Below are positions 46,079 through 52,635 of a stretch of DNA of 64,000 bases, in pieces. How positions within the stretch are numbered: position 1 is the first letter of the stretch; every line of letters starts with the position of its first letter. Origin of the DNA: Dehalococcoidia bacterium (GTDB lineage Bacteria; Chloroflexota; Dehalococcoidia; Bin125); contig JAJDTU010000011.1 in the NCBI GenBank assembly GCA_022826965.1, positions 62,001-126,000 of the forward strand, read 5' to 3'. Below the pieces are notes generated by a model. That model saw only the letters and a program-made list of their open reading frames with translations. It had not been told where the DNA came from and did no database searches. The position numbers and the translations under genes are program-made.

Positions 46079-48112
46079 TTACGGATTCGCTGTGCGGTCG
46101 TCATCGATTGATGCCAGCCGGCCCAGCGGCGTCAAGTGACCCTTGAGCCGGCTTGAGGCCGGCACCTGCTGATCGCCGTTCTGTCCAGCCTCGTCGTCAT
46201 CGTCACCTCGCAGGACGCCGAGCTCGTGGTCGAATCGCGCCTGCTCCACGCGCCACTGGCGGTGCCGCGAGAGCACCTGTTCCGCGTGCTCCTCGCCGAT
46301 GTACTGCTCCAGGTACGCACGCTGATCGAGCGGATCGAGTGGATCGTTGAGCCGCGCTCGTCCGTGTTCCTGCACGGCGATTCGCTGCGCCGAGGAGTAC
46401 GGGTCGATCCAGACATCGATGTCGAGCGAGGGAATCTGGGCCGGCTCGACGCAGATGGTCTCGCGACGCTGGACGCGCCCGTTCGTGCCCTTGGCGAACA
46501 CCCAGATCGGGGCGCCGAAGCCACCTTCGGAAAGGGGCTTCGACATCACTAGCGCCATGTTGCGCAGCATCGTGCGGACGGCGCCGATCTGCGCCCGCTT
46601 CAGTTGCTGGACCTGCAGGTTCCTTGAACCCAACAACAGATTGAGCGTGTGCGGCTGGGTGTTCGGGCCGATCTCGCCGCGCTCGACCGCGCCCGAGTCC
46701 GGCGCAGCCGCGAGCAACTCATCGTGCGACATGCGCATGAACTCAACGAAGGCCGGATCGACGCGGAACTCAACGCGATGCAGCGAGGCGCCCGCGGGCA
46801 AGGACTCCGCCGATGCGGCCCCCGGCGTGACCTCCAACCGGTTCCCGTCATCGTCGGTCTGATAGCTGCCGTTCGCGAGCCGAATCCAGTAGAGCGGAAT
46901 CGCGGTCTGCTCGGCCAGATACATCCCCAGCGAGCGCTCGTAGTCGTAGCCCGGTTTCGCGCGGTAGATCCCCTCCATCGTCGGCTCCCAGCGGCGGAGC
47001 ATATCTGGATGATCGTTCACGTCGGCCTCGGCGATCGCGAACGGCGGCATCTCGTACGGATGCGGGTGCGACTTGATCAGCGTCCACTCGTGCCGGGGCT
47101 GCTCGCCCGCGCGCTGGACACGAGGCGTGTGACCCTCAAGTGCCGCCAGTTCGTAGTACTCGTGTCGAGTCCAGAGCGAGACGACGCGTACACGTTCGCC
47201 CCAGCCGCCGCCCGAGGGTTCCTCCGGCAGGGGTGCATCAACCCCGCTCGCAACAGCCAGCGTTGGATCGCCGGCGATGGCAGTCATGCGAAGTTCAAGA
47301 CCATCCTGCTCACGCAGCCGATTGCGATACTCGAACAGCCCGATCTCGTGCACGACTGCCGCAATGCCGAGCCCGTTGCCGCTGCCGTGGTCCTCCACGA
47401 ACGCGAACTGGTCGGGACGAATCACCGCGACGCTCCACGGGAATCCGGATGCAGCCCGGCGTCGACGGTCGCGGTCGCGGCGGCTCTCTTCGGTCTCGAT
47501 CCAGGGAAGAGACGGACCGTCCTCGGATCGTGAGCGCCGGAAGCGGCGACGATCCTCCGGATCCTGCGGTCGCGAGCCGCGCTGCTCTCTGGCGGGCAAC
47601 GTCGGCAGATGTTGCGGAGCCATCTGCCAGTGCAACACGCCGAAACAGAGGCAGACCTGTCCGTAGCCGAGGTCCGCCTGCAGCGAGAGGTGCGACCGCT
47701 CCTCAACCTGGCGCAGACCTTGCTCCAGCACATGCTCGAGGTTGTCGGCTGCCTGCCGGGCGGCAGGCGAGTCGTCCGGCGGCTCGACGTGTACGCGCAG
47801 CGGATGTTCGGTGACCCGCTGCCGCAACTGCGACCACGTCCGGCGCGGCAGATCGGTCTGCCAGGGCTGAGCCTGCAGATGCGGTGCGTGGAACTTGGGA
47901 TCGGTTTCTCGAGCGTTGTACAGGTGAGACTCGCGGTGCCGGATCCGCTCATGCAGCGCGGAAAACCGGCTCAGCACACCGAGCGGCGCGGATCGTCCGC
48001 CACCGAGTTGCCCCAGGATGTGGTTGAGGTCGGCCTCCGACAGCGTGGTCGCCAGGATCGCCCCAGCCGACTGCGGCTCAGCCGACGACATCTCGCGCAA
48101 GGTTGTCATCAT
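46079..48112 (-). CDS. Phage portal-like protein
   Basis: 677 aa. It lacks signal peptide or membrane helices. N-terminal helical stem with Q-L-R-Q-R-V-T-E-H-P-L-R-V and A-R-Q-A-A-D-N-L-E, a long loop rich in Arg/Asp, a middle segment of W-x-R-H-E-Y-Y-E, P-F-A-I-A-E-A-D-V-N, then a C-terminal clip region Q-V-Q-Q-L-K-R-A-Q-I-G-A-V and an acidic tail. This order fits portals of tailed phages or gene transfer agents. No terminase or protease gene is adjacent. The capsid genes are 11 kb away on the other strand. Confidence 0.6.
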   Translation of the reverse strand: MMTTLREMSSAEPQSAGAILATTLSEADLNHILGQLGGGRSAPLGVLSRFSALHERIRHRESHLYNARETDPKFHAPHLQAQPWQTDLPRRTWSQLRQRVTEHPLRVHVEPPDDSPAARQAADNLEHVLEQGLRQVEERSHLSLQADLGYGQVCLCFGVLHWQMAPQHLPTLPAREQRGSRPQDPEDRRRFRRSRSEDGPSLPWIETEESRRDRDRRRRAASGFPWSVAVIRPDQFAFVEDHGSGNGLGIAAVVHEIGLFEYRNRLREQDGLELRMTAIAGDPTLAVASGVDAPLPEEPSGGGWGERVRVVSLWTRHEYYELAALEGHTPRVQRAGEQPRHEWTLIKSHPHPYEMPPFAIAEADVNDHPDMLRRWEPTMEGIYRAKPGYDYERSLGMYLAEQTAIPLYWIRLANGSYQTDDDGNRLEVTPGAASAESLPAGASLHRVEFRVDPAFVEFMRMSHDELLAAAPDSGAVERGEIGPNTQPHTLNLLLGSRNLQVQQLKRAQIGAVRTMLRNMALVMSKPLSEGGFGAPIWVFAKGTNGRVQRRETICVEPAQIPSLDIDVWIDPYSSAQRIAVQEHGRARLNDPLDPLDQRAYLEQYIGEEHAEQVLSRHRQWRVEQARFDHELGVLRGDDDDEAGQNGDQQVPASSRLKGHLTPLGRLASIDDDRTANP

Positions 48113-48272: not shown

Positions 48273-48308
48273 ACGACGCCGCGGATCACCCGCCGGGTGA
48301 GGCGTCGT
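48273..48308 (-). terminator. Terminator-like hairpin after the DsbA-like genes
   Basis: Outer 8-bp stem ACGACGCC/GGCGTCGT (48273-48280 with 48301-48308) and inner 6-bp stem TCACCC/GGGTGA (48286-48291 with 48295-48300), with an unpaired GCGGA on one side. It overlaps the stop of the 48308 gene and probably ends the operon. Confidence 0.6.
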
Positions 48309-49237
48309 CAGCCCTCAGCCTCCAGTTCGGCAGCCAGCGCCATCACCTGTTCGATCAGCCGATCGGCGACGATCGCACCGCCCTCGCCGTTGATGTGAAT
48401 CGTCGGCGTGCGGCGCACGCCCACCTCCGAAGCGGCGCGGTGCTGACCGTTGACGAGATCCAGGTGTGTCTCATCGTCCAGGCATTGCGCGAACTGCTCG
48501 GTGTCGAGCTCGAACGCGGCCGCCATTGCTATCGCGCCTTCGCGGCTGAAGTCCTGTGTCGTCATGTAATGGTCATGGAAGTTCCACCACTTGCCCTGGT
48601 CGCCGCCGCACTCCGTTGCCAGCGCCGCAAACACCGATGGCTGCCCGTGGTTGAGAATGTGCCGATACTCGAATCGCGCCAGACCGGTGCGAACCAACTC
48701 TTCAATCACGCGCGGCTCAACCTGAGCCGCGAACCGGCGGCAGTTTCCTCAAAGAAAATCTGAATATTCGGTGATCACGATCGCCGCGTCGGGATCGCCG
48801 ATCGAGTTGCGATTCGCAATCAGGCCGGCCCGATGACCCGACTCGATGATCTGAGCGACCATCGCCCCCTGTTCCGGCTCCTCATGCCCAGCCTGCTCAG
48901 CCTCTGTCTGGTCGGCAGCCGGCTCGGCCTGTTGCCCGGACTTCAGTTCGGCCTCCTGCTCGGCCTCCGGTTCGGCCTGTGCCTGAGCGGCTGTCTGTTC
49001 GCGCTCGGCCGACGGCTGCGCATGCGCCTGATCCTGCGCCTGATCCTGCGCGTGGTCCTGCGTCGATTCGCTCTGGCCCGCCGCGTACGACGTGGCCGAT
49101 TGCTCCTGTTGCTCGTGCTGCTCTGATTGCACGCTCGCCGCCGATTGCGGCTGCGACGGCGGCGCGTCGTCACCGCCGGAGGAACACCCCGCGACCAGGA
49201 GCGCGAGCGCCGCCGCGATCAGTCCGATCCTCGTCAT
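48308..49237 (-). CDS. DsbA-like lipoprotein, predicted selenoprotein (U-G-N-C), third of three
   Basis: 309 residues if the TGA at 48749-48751 is read as selenocysteine (residue 163). Start ATG at 49237 with GGAGG seven bases upstream. Lipobox L-V-A-G-C18, then a 120-residue Gln/Glu/Ala-rich linker, then G-D-P-D-A-A-I-V-I-T-E-Y-S-D-F-L-U163-G-N-C166 and the thioredoxin/DsbA domain with cis-Pro loop R-R-T-P-T-I-H-I-N-G. U replaces the attacking Cys of CxxC. Normal annotation would split it into a truncated lipoprotein and a headless thioredoxin. Two base gap from the upstream gene. It should act as an exported thiol oxidoreductase or isomerase. Confidence 0.82.
48711..48731 (-). promoter_or_regulatory. 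Predicted bacterial SECIS hairpin (gene 48308)
   Basis: Perfect 9-bp stem CGCGGCTCA/TGAGCCGCG with loop GGT. The loop begins 26 nt after the TGA. A G-rich apical loop at that distance fits bacterial SECIS elements. Confidence 0.75.
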
Positions 49238-49239
49238 GG

Positions 49240-50061
49240 TCAGCCTCCTTCTTGCCCCTCTGCAGCTTCAGCCGCCTCGGCAGCCTGGTGGACCTTGTCG
49301 AGAATCGCGCTCAGCGACCGTCCGCCTGGCTCGCCGTTCACTCGAAACGTCGGCGTCCCATTGACGCCCTCGGCGAAGCCCTGCTGTTGCATCTGCAGGA
49401 TGCGATCACGGTGCTCTTCGTTGTCGATGCACCGCGAGAACTGGGCGATGTCGAGACCCTCGCGCTCGGCGATCTCGATCGCCCCCGCCCGCGTGAATGT
49501 CCGCGCCCGGCCTTCGAGCAGGTACTCGTCGTGGAACTCCCACCAGGCCCCCTGGTCGCCGGCGCATTCCGTCGCCATCGCGGCAAACTCCGAGGCCGCG
49601 CCGAAGATGATGAAATGCCGGTACTCGTACCGTGCCAGTCCGGTGCGAATCGCTTCTTCCATGATTTGCGGCTCGAACCGAGACGCGAAACTCCGACAGC
49701 TCGGTCACTGGAAGTCCGAATACTCGACAATCACCACCGGCGCGTCCGGATCACCGACCGAGTTGCGCAGGTACGGCAGCCCCTCGCGATGACCGTAGTC
49801 AATCTCACCGACCTCGGTCACGCCGGCGATAGGCTCCTCCGCCGAGGGCGCTTCCGCCTGCACAACCTCCGCCTCGTCCTGCTGTGCTTGTTGAGCCTGC
49901 TGTTGCTGCATGATCGTCGCTTCGCGCTCAGCGCGCTCGCTGCGCGGTGTCTCGGTCGAGACCGGCTCTCCCTGCTGATCGACCGGTCCGCCGCCCGATC
50001 CACAGGCAACGACGACGCCCATCCCAACCGCCAGCACAACCAGCCACACATAGCGCCCCAT
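49240..50061 (-). CDS. DsbA-like lipoprotein, predicted selenoprotein (U-P-S-C), second of three
   Basis: 273 residues from the ATG at 50061; a GTG at 50112 overlapping the stop of the gene before it (GTGA) would add 17 and implies coupling. Lipobox V-V-V-A-C, Gln/Glu-rich linker, then G-D-P-D-A-P-V-V-I-V-E-Y-S-D-F-Q-U119-P-S-C122. The TGA codon is 49705-49707. The remaining domain has H-F-I-I-F-G and cis-Pro loop V-N-G-T-P-T-F-R-V-N-G. No other stop interrupts it. It shares about the same domain as its neighbours, but the linker is different. Confidence 0.82.
49668..49686 (-). promoter_or_regulatory. Predicted bacterial SECIS hairpin (gene 49240)
   Basis: Stem GCGTCTCG/CGAGCCGC with one mismatch (T-C) and loop GTT. 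The loop begins 26 nt after the TGA, the same position as in the two neighbours. Confidence 0.65.
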
Positions 50062-50108
50062 GCGTCGAGAGTACTCCAAACTCCCCCCGCTCGCGGTCGC
50101 GAACGGCG

Positions 50109-50966
50109 TCACTCCGCTGTGTCCTCCAGCGCTCGTTCGACCGCCTCCTCGATCGCCTCAAACGTCGCATCGACCTGCTCACCATCGACGAACACCGTGG
50201 GTGTGCCCGCGACTCCACGGGACTCCCCTTCGGCACGCGACGCCATCACCGCCGGCACGCTATGCCCCTCGTTCATACAGGTCACGAACTCGACGTAGTC
50301 GAGTCCTTCGAACGTGATCTGCCGGCGTAGCCCCGCCTCCGTGAATAGCGTCTCGTCGCCGGCCATGTAGCGGTCATGCAGCGGCCAGAATGCGCCCTGA
50401 TTGGCAGCGCACTCGACGACGTAGGCTGCGAAGTCCGCCGCGTCGCCGCGAACCGGGAAGTGACGGAAGACGAACCGCGCCTTCCCGGTCGCGACCAGTC
50501 GCTCGACGATCAACGGCTCAACCTGAGCCGCGAACCACTGGCAGCCGCCTCAAGTGAAGTCACCGAAGTAGCGGATCTCCACCGGCGCATCCGGCTCCCC
50601 GAGCACATGCCGCTCCGACCTCACACCCTTGTGCACCCCCACGATCTCCGCAGGAAGCTCGTCGACCGGTTCCGCATCCTCAACCTCCTCCTGCGCTTGC
50701 TGAGTTTGTTGCTGCTGTTCAACGTCCGCGACGGACTGTTGAGCCTGCTGAGCCCGCTGGGCCTGCTGGGCCTGCTGCGATTGTTGGACAGGCTCAGCCT
50801 CAACCGTTTCCTGTGGTGCCTGCGCGTCTTGCTGCTGAGCGACGGTCGCCTCACGTTCAGCCCGCTGCGACGTCGCCGTCCCGGTCGGCTGCGCCTGTTC
50901 ACCCGAGCCGCAGGCGGCCGCAAGAGTCACCAGGCTCAGCGCGACCAGCAGTAGAAGCCGTGCCAC
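50109..50966 (-). CDS. DsbA-like lipoprotein, predicted selenoprotein (U-G-G-C), first of three
   Basis: 285 residues from the GTG at 50966 (GAGG five bases upstream); an ATG at 50993 overlaps the previous gene. Lipobox L-A-A-A-C, linker of Gln/Ala repeats, then G-E-P-D-A-P-V-E-I-R-Y-F-G-D-F-T-U139-G-G-C142 and the DsbA domain with R-H-F-P-V-R-G and cis-Pro loop V-A-G-T-P-T-V-F-V-D-G. TGA codon 50550-50552. Start lies one base after the DUF885 stop, so the operon is DUF885 then three selenoproteins. Such proteins form or rearrange disulfides outside the membrane. Confidence 0.82.
50514..50530 (-). promoter_or_regulatory. Predicted bacterial SECIS hairpin (gene 50109)
   Basis: Perfect 7-bp stem CGGCTCA/TGAGCCG with loop GGT, loop beginning 26 nt after the TGA. 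Confidence 0.75.
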
Positions 50967-50967
50967 A

Positions 50968-52635
50968 TCAACCTCGCAACCGCGACATCTCATCGCGAAG
51001 CTGCTGCAGACCCATGGGGCCCAGATCCAGCGCCGCCTTGTGGAAGCTCTTCAGATCGAACTCGTCGCCCATCGACTCTCGCGCCGCCTCCCGAGCCGCC
51101 AGCCATTCGCGCTCGCCGACCTTGTACGAGATCGCCTGACCCGGCCAGCCGAGGTACCGATCCACCTCGCTCGCGAGCATCTTCTCGGGGAAGAATGAGC
51201 GCTCGATCAGGAACGGCAGCGCCAGCTCCGGTGTCCAGGTCTCGCCGCCGTGGTATTCCTCCCGCTCCGGAATCGGCAGTTCGAGGTGCATGCCGATATC
51301 GATCACCACGCGCACCGCGCGCAGTGCCTGGCTACTGAGCAGACCCATGTAGAACGCCGGATCCTCGAGGTAACCCAGCTCAGCCATGAGCCGCTCGGCG
51401 TACAGCGCCCAGCCCTCGACGTAACCTGATGTCCCGGCAAGCAACCGCTGATACCGCGTCAGTTGATCGCCCAGATACCGGGTCGTGCCAATCTGTAGAT
51501 GATGCCCCGGAACGCCCTCGTGATAGCAGACCGAGAGCTCGCGCCAGAGGGGGAAGCGAGTCTCGCCGCCCGTCGGATACCAGGTCCTCCCAGGCCGCGA
51601 GAAGTCCTCCGACGGCCCCGTGTAGTACATCGCGAGCGCCCCGCCCGGCGGCGCGATCATCGCCTCGATCTCTTGCACCGGCTCGGCGATGTCGAAGTGC
51701 GTGCCCAGCAGCGCCTGCATCGTCTCGTCCTGTGTCTGCTGCATCCACTCGCGGAAGGCGTCTTCGCCTTCAATCGCCCGCGCGTCGTCCGACTCCAGGA
51801 TCGCAATCGCCTCCGCCGCTGAGGCGCCCGGCGAGATTCGCTCCGCCGTCGCCGCCATCTCCGACTGGATCCGCCAGACCTCCTCCCAGCCCCATTCATA
51901 GGTCTCCTCCAGGTCGAGCTCAATCCCGTTGAACCCCCGCGACGCCGCCTGATACCGCTCGCGACCAACGGGATCTCGAGGATTCGCATTCTCCAGATAC
52001 TCCCGCTCCAACCAGTCGCCCATCGCCGCATAGCCCTGCTCTGCCGCCGTGACGTTCTCTCCGCCGTCGACCCCCAGCTCATCGCACAACTGCCGGAAGA
52101 ACGAAGCGCCCCCGCCCTGACCCGACCAGACCCGGCACTGCTCGATTCCGCCCCGCACCTGGCGCTGCGCCACGACGATCCCCTGGGCCATCCCCGACGC
52201 CAGCGAGGCCCGATACCGCTCCAACGCTTCCGGCACCGCCCCCATCCGCTCGACGATGTTCGCCTGGTCCTCCTCCGTCTCGCTCGGCATCAGGTCGAAC
52301 ACCTGCCGAGTGTTCTGCAGCGGCGACGCCAGGATGTTCAGTGAGCGCAGATGCTCCTGCTGAGCCTCCAACTCCGTCTCATAGGCAAACCGCTCCAGCA
52401 TCACATCGCGCGCCACTCGGTCGCGCTCGTTCTCGATGTTCAGCAGCCGCAGCGCTGCTTCCGCCTGCTGGCGAATCGCCGACCGCTCCGCATGACCATC
52501 CGGCGAGTAATCCGTCAGCTCCGTCTCTCGACCCGGAATCCCGAGCGCCGTCGCCATGTTCGGACTTGCGGTCGCCAGCGCATCAACGTACCAGTCGGAG
52601 ATCCGGGAGACGCTGTCGAGTGCCGTTGTCATCAA
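50968..52635 (-). CDS. DUF885-family zinc metallopeptidase-like protein
   Basis: 555 aa, helical, no signal peptide. Zinc motif H-E-G-V-P-G-H-H-L-Q (HExxxxH form of DUF885) and E-G-W-A-L-Y-A-E-R downstream give the usual two-His plus Glu set. DUF885 proteins are M3/M32-like peptidases of mostly unknown substrate. The selenoprotein genes follow one base after its stop. It might process peptides from proteins refolded by them, but no direct evidence supports that. Confidence 0.82.
   Translation of the reverse strand: MMTTALDSVSRISDWYVDALATASPNMATALGIPGRETELTDYSPDGHAERSAIRQQAEAALRLLNIENERDRVARDVMLERFAYETELEAQQEHLRSLNILASPLQNTRQVFDLMPSETEEDQANIVERMGAVPEALERYRASLASGMAQGIVVAQRQVRGGIEQCRVWSGQGGGASFFRQLCDELGVDGGENVTAAEQGYAAMGDWLEREYLENANPRDPVGRERYQAASRGFNGIELDLEETYEWGWEEVWRIQSEMAATAERISPGASAAEAIAILESDDARAIEGEDAFREWMQQTQDETMQALLGTHFDIAEPVQEIEAMIAPPGGALAMYYTGPSEDFSRPGRTWYPTGGETRFPLWRELSVCYHEGVPGHHLQIGTTRYLGDQLTRYQRLLAGTSGYVEGWALYAERLMAELGYLEDPAFYMGLLSSQALRAVRVVIDIGMHLELPIPEREEYHGGETWTPELALPFLIERSFFPEKMLASEVDRYLGWPGQAISYKVGEREWLAAREAARESMGDEFDLKSFHKAALDLGPMGLQQLRDEMSRLRG

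Follow-up and report, generated by a model that had tools for sequence, protein, structure and literature searches.

Three adjacent genes on the minus strand of the window, the whole 64,000-nucleotide stretch of DNA that was analysed, each carry a single in-frame TGA. Are these genes broken, or are they translated through the TGA as selenoproteins, and what would a cluster of such proteins do? The sequence-only reading had favoured selenoproteins, with selenocysteine (Sec) in place of the first cysteine of a CxxC motif in each of three tandem DsbA-like lipoproteins. Its coordinates and motif contexts proved accurate: the TGA occupies the first Cys position in genes A, B and C, no internal TAA or TAG occurs in any frame, and translation with table 11 yields exactly the six broken fragments that it had expected of an automatic annotation. 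When TGA is read as a residue, the six open reading frames become three proteins, A with 285, B with 273 and C with 309 residues. The features of the locus are as follows.

50968..52635, minus strand: DUF885 protein (PF05960, 482 bits), the upstream neighbour
50109..50966, minus strand: gene A, predicted Sec DsbA-like domain (U-G-G-C), Q/E/A-rich linker, lipoprotein-type signal (MARLLLLVALSLVTLAAAC); PF13462, 102 bits
50550..50552, minus strand: predicted Sec-UGA of gene A, from codon comparison with relatives
50513..50531, minus strand: candidate bSECIS hairpin of gene A, GCGGCTC-AGGTT-GAGCCGT
49240..50061, minus strand: gene B, predicted Sec DsbA-like domain (U-P-S-C), linker, lipoprotein-type signal (VVAC); PF13462, 101.7 bits
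49705..49707, minus strand: predicted Sec-UGA of gene B, from codon comparison with relatives
49668..49686, minus strand: candidate bSECIS hairpin of gene B, GCGTCTC-GGTTC-GAGCCGC, with one mismatch and a G-C in place of the loop-closing A-U
48308..49237, minus strand: gene C, predicted Sec DsbA-like domain (U-G-N-C), linker, lipoprotein-type signal (LVAGC)
48749..48751, minus strand: predicted Sec-UGA of gene C, from codon comparison with relatives
48712..48730, minus strand: candidate bSECIS hairpin of gene C, GCGGCTC-AGGTT-GAGCCGC
46079..48112, minus strand: 677-residue open reading frame, the downstream neighbour, conserved in most congeners at mostly 72-93% identity

Gene A most likely starts at the GTG at 50966, in agreement with the end coordinate first given for it; an alternative, longer ATG start at 50993 falls within the DUF885 gene. 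Alignment of the three proteins reveals a common plan, consisting of a lipoprotein-type signal with an invariant cysteine, a Q/E/A-rich linker, G-(D/E)-P-D-A, (S/G)DF-x-U-x-x-C-(R/Q)-x-F-A, a second conserved Cys pair and a T-P cis-Pro loop. The catalytic motifs read G-E-P-D-A...GDFT-U-GGC-QWFA in A, G-D-P-D-A...SDFQ-U-PSC-RSFA in B and G-D-P-D-A...SDFL-U-GNC-RRFA in C. The loop had been described as intact and is indeed present, as TP(T), in all three. Judged by eye, the lipoboxes of B (VVAC) and C (LVAGC) fit, and that of A (LAAAC) is weaker and less canonical. Pfam assigns all three to Thioredoxin_4 (PF13462) with 84-102 bits, against a gathering score of 23.2, and DSBA is also matched.

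The array is a property of the genus. The locus was recovered from 14 genus genomes, the present one included, with three or four tandem copies in the order A-B-C, A-B-C-D or A-B-D, and 13 of the 14 also yielded a dispersed copy located apart from it; congener G002, an assembly in 470 contigs, gave no array. Between one and three copies are present in family members beyond the genus, and across most of the class the gene is a single copy with Cys. That three TGAs at one catalytic position are not easily explained by error or decay, as had been argued from the letters, can now be given a figure: about 92, 95 and 102 other single-base changes could have created a stop elsewhere in A, B and C, respectively, so that random nonsense at the same codon in all three would be a coincidence of about one in a million. 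Sequencing error or pseudogene decay, to which the six table-11 fragments and the derivation of the sequence from an assembly might point, is extremely improbable and was rejected, because the codon is TGA in 67 of 67 array and dispersed copies (from the genus, the family and two further genomes of the class), no further internal stop occurs within the domain among the copies compared, dN/dS between orthologues past the TGA is 0.03-0.32, and a hairpin behind the codon is conserved and covaries. At this codon, homologues in other families and phyla carry TGC, TGT or TGA and encode no other residue, as the proposed alignment of Cys homologues was expected to reveal. The TGA form occurs elsewhere too: in Desulfobacterota, DsbA-like homologues from Desulfofustis, Desulforhopalus, Desulfopila, Desulfobacula and two Deltaproteobacteria MAGs (L072, L086, L087, L100, L102, L103) have TGA at the first Cys of CxxC. 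Another arrangement is seen in a deltaproteobacterial, a myxococcal and an Omnitrophica MAG (L067:3314-5806, L079, L063), where single frames hold three to four successive Thioredoxin_4-like domains with Cys motifs.

The hairpin lies 18 nt past each Sec-TGA and has the sequence GCGGCTC-AGGTT-GAGCCGC or a variant of it. At least six of its seven pairs are kept at this exact offset in 63 of the 67 genes (at the runner-up offset, in 24 genes). Among 52 distinct sequences, 93.8% of the cells are paired, as against 38% at most in slid-partner controls, and covariation reaches 0.116, a value attained by none of 500 shuffles (0.055 +/- 0.006). Among the compensatory changes are U-A to C-G (five times), U-A to G-C (twice) and the loop-closing A-U to G-C (four times); the first replaces Glu by Gly in the protein and the second Glu by Ala. 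The pair at columns 25-37 is mismatched in 16 of the 52 sequences. Synonymous identity across the six hairpin codons is 0.81-1.00, compared with mostly 0.3-0.8 in the flanking codons. The published bSECIS model (PMC13188914) places the apical loop 16-37 nt after the UGA, with G in the first two loop positions, a stem of 4-16 bp and an MFE of -7.5 or lower, and the hairpins agree with these constraints (loop A-GGU-U, 25 nt from the UGA); that of gene B has a folding energy of -6.8 kcal/mol as an isolated 19-nt hairpin and of -13.2 in its 51-nt context. In this GC-rich DNA the stability of single hairpins is unremarkable (shuffle z-scores of -1.5, +0.3 and -0.7), and the case for the element therefore rests on comparison. 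A covariance model of the hairpin run against the whole genome gave high scores only at the three array genes and the dispersed copy (C13:107371), and an Rfam search over the array region gave no match.

A UGA in front of such a hairpin could still be a sense codon other than Sec, through genome-wide recoding to Trp or Gly or through insertion of Cys by an unusual tRNA, giving CxxC or WxxC enzymes. Cys insertion would indeed make a working enzyme, since the UGA aligns with the Cys of homologues. However, A, B, C and the DUF885 gene themselves end in TGA, and Trp is encoded by TGG; with both used normally, an alternative genetic code was rejected. The hairpin accompanies solely the internal TGAs, being absent from the terminal TGAs of these four genes, and a free Cys or Trp reading would not need it. 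Furthermore, the genome (3.0 Mb, 97% complete) contains the full Sec machinery that the sequence-only reading had proposed to look for: profile matches to SelA (523 bits), SelB (347 bits, joined) and SelD (352 bits), and a tRNA-Sec(UCA) of 70.2 bits with anticodon tca according to ARAGORN. A non-Sec sense reading is thus very improbable. SelD (L019:1450-2619; C12:264989 in the genome) has an in-frame TGA at its own catalytic position (RCGG-U-GSK) and would itself be a selenoprotein. Across the class, 29 genomes have the TGA form (in seven of them the position of the TGA is unchecked), and all except G021 and G277, which are 54% and 72% complete, have SelA. This co-occurrence is weak support, because 196 of 294 class genomes carry SelA anyway. 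Taken on codon, hairpin and machinery, the predicted Sec assignment is near certain.

One may also ask whether the UGA serves as a regulated stop, such that without selenium the lipoprotein stub is the sole product and each half has a function. The N-terminal half would be suited to this, being an independent secreted low-complexity stretch, but it is poorly conserved and the domain past the UGA is the constrained part, which makes regulated termination hardly credible. Translation through the UGA as Sec remains the preferred reading. Copies of A from different species group together with support, as do those of B, of D and of the dispersed gene; the grouping of C is weaker. Since the copies group by paralogue across species, the duplications predate the genus, and these comparisons indicate that purifying selection has maintained the array, with A, B, C (and D) as distinct lineages, from a time before the radiation of the genus. 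The dispersed paralogue of the present genome (L154:1682-2809; C13:107218 region) has the motif GDPF-U-PNC and Gly, not Thr, before the cis-Pro; where the array proteins have the lipoprotein linker, it has an N-terminal repeat (RVIARLHENGRIEFGLRT / RIIARRTEDTRVEFGLRI). It adjoins a luciferase-like monooxygenase gene and a glyoxalase-domain gene.

What chemistry might the proteins perform? An AlphaFold2 model of the gene C domain, built with 40 homologues, has a pLDDT of 97.3 and a pTM of 0.91. Its best PDB match is BdbD of Bacillus subtilis (3eu3; TM 0.85), followed by Corynebacterium diphtheriae DsbA/TsdA (4pwo/7unn) and Wolbachia alpha-DsbA1 (3f4r), all with the same fold and the same CxxC and cis-Pro positions; sequence comparison likewise points to relatives of the DsbA/BdbD type. 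The difference is that these three enzymes have Cys where the array proteins would have Sec. The Sec/Cys, the resolving Cys and the Pro are conserved in all 65 array and dispersed rows of the alignment. So is a second Cys pair (C210 and C252 of gene C), aligned with Cys in alpha-DsbA1, which probably forms a structural disulfide. Very probably, A, B and C are paralogous selenoproteins with thiol-disulfide exchange chemistry. With the UGA at the attacking (first) CxxC residue of a BdbD/DsbA-like fold and a putative bSECIS hairpin 18 nt on, SelB with Sec-tRNA would read the UGA at the hairpin, giving full-length UxxC proteins. These would be exported as lipoproteins and tethered outside the cytoplasmic membrane by an acylated N-terminal Cys, a flexible Q/E/A-rich linker of 80-120 residues presenting the catalytic domain. 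The Sec would then attack substrate disulfides (or oxidised thiols), and the second Cys would release it, allowing fast thiol-disulfide exchange.

The direction of the exchange is less certain. BdbD, C. diphtheriae DsbA and alpha-DsbA1 are oxidases with DsbB/BdbC/VKOR-type partners. Partners of this kind were not found here: VKOR was detected in none of 13 genus genomes searched (this one and 12 congeners) and DsbB was not found in this genome, which does have one CcdA/DsbD_TM protein. This distribution favours reductase- or isomerase-type action on proteins outside the cell, each of the paralogues A-D being adapted to substrates of its own, a lead to which we would give about an even chance. 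The array proteins could instead be true DsbA oxidases, with a quinone reductase of the membrane that is unrecognised, and neither VKOR nor DsbB, restoring their oxidised state. Their nearest folds are DsbA/BdbD oxidases; in about 20 genomes of the class the homologous DsbA-like gene typically stands directly before VKOR, so that those relatives are probably DsbA oxidases; and a Sec-DsbA gene lies beside VKOR at three related loci (L126, L167, L130). Against this stand the missing partners, the CcdA-type transporter and the general view that Sec at the attacking position favours reduction or isomerisation. An oxidase role is consequently somewhat doubtful, though a serious contender. The preference for a reductase or isomerase depends solely on the absence of known partners and is to be taken as a lead, since a quinone-linked partner of an unrecognised kind would reverse it.

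In another family of the class, a Sec-form DsbA-like gene (SDYQ-U-PYC; L233:1337-2541 in G026:C216) overlaps a VKOR gene by 4 nt. The only internal TGA of this VKOR gene (L233:2449-2451) falls on the first Cys of the VKOR CxxC (LQAI-U-PWC; LQAWCVWC and KAVCPWC in relatives) and is followed by a stable hairpin (z -2.2). The observation comes from one genome, with 9% contamination; the pair may be a double-selenium DsbA-VKOR relay. The 2026 selenoproteome review makes no mention of VKOR. A broader scenario, on the whole unlikely, is that the genus has a VKOR- and DsbB-independent extracellular thiol-disulfide relay of four to five specialised Sec DsbA paralogues, members of one tandemly amplified selenoprotein family; its origin would be a DsbA-VKOR pair, both partners of which turned into selenoproteins in the sister family.

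How much of this was known? Sec DsbA-like and DsbG-like proteins have been on record since 2006 (PMC1794560, PMC2398784, PMC13188914), and Sec at the first CxxC position of a DsbA-like fold is known from genomes and from the GOS survey ('DsbA 1', UxxC), with abundant Cys homologues (PMC1794560, PMC2398784, PMC5029168). Where they treat Sec DsbA, these papers give family counts, and a tandem or lipoprotein array is not described in those parts. The best NCBIfam match of all three proteins is NF041057 (Rcas_1661 thioredoxin-like (seleno)lipoprotein), entered as 'DsbG-like protein' (UxxC) in a review (PMC13188914), which shares the lipoprotein signal, linker, thioredoxin-like domain and UxxC. Membership was rejected: the scores of 109.1, 145.1 and 146.7 bits fall under the curated equivalog cut-off of 190, reached by none of 294 class genomes, which makes the array proteins relatives of this family. 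The array also differs from it in comprising three tandem paralogues and a dispersed one. Adjacent selenoprotein genes are found in the operons grdA-grdB, prdB-prdC, frhA-frhD-hdrA, SAO and Tso (PMC13188914); as described, these mix different families, whereas the array consists of paralogues of one family. No description of a tandem Sec-DsbA paralogue array was found in the literature covered, one relevant 2025 paper on selenoprotein neighbourhoods lying outside its scope. What appears to be new is the conservation of three to four Sec-DsbA paralogues in tandem, together with a dispersed one, in a genus in which no VKOR was found and a genome in which no DsbB was found.

The sequence-only reading had likewise taken Sec DsbA-like proteins as known and the tandem array as apparently new, and both points stand; its placing of the array behind a DUF885 gene holds as an adjacency and need not imply a function. 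The DUF885 gene is upstream in 11 of 13 fetched congener arrays, at 84-95% identity. Its product has no signal sequence by eye and, in congener G008, an NYN-domain open reading frame on the opposite strand sits between it and A. DUF885 was for these reasons set aside as a functional partner, and the linkage looks positional. The 677-residue frame downstream gave no match in Pfam, NCBIfam or PHROG.

Selenocysteine is costly and as a rule sparingly used. The system escapes notice because, under standard annotation, each gene falls into two pieces, and because the curated family model does not capture these proteins. With their natural hairpin variants, the orthologous A-D sets are well suited to clean tests of bSECIS rules, and in the absence of VKOR and DsbB the role of Sec-DsbA can be put to a direct test. 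Three to four conserved Sec copies of one extracellular redox enzyme, and one more elsewhere in the genome, suggest that the surface thiol system of these bacteria depends strongly on selenium.
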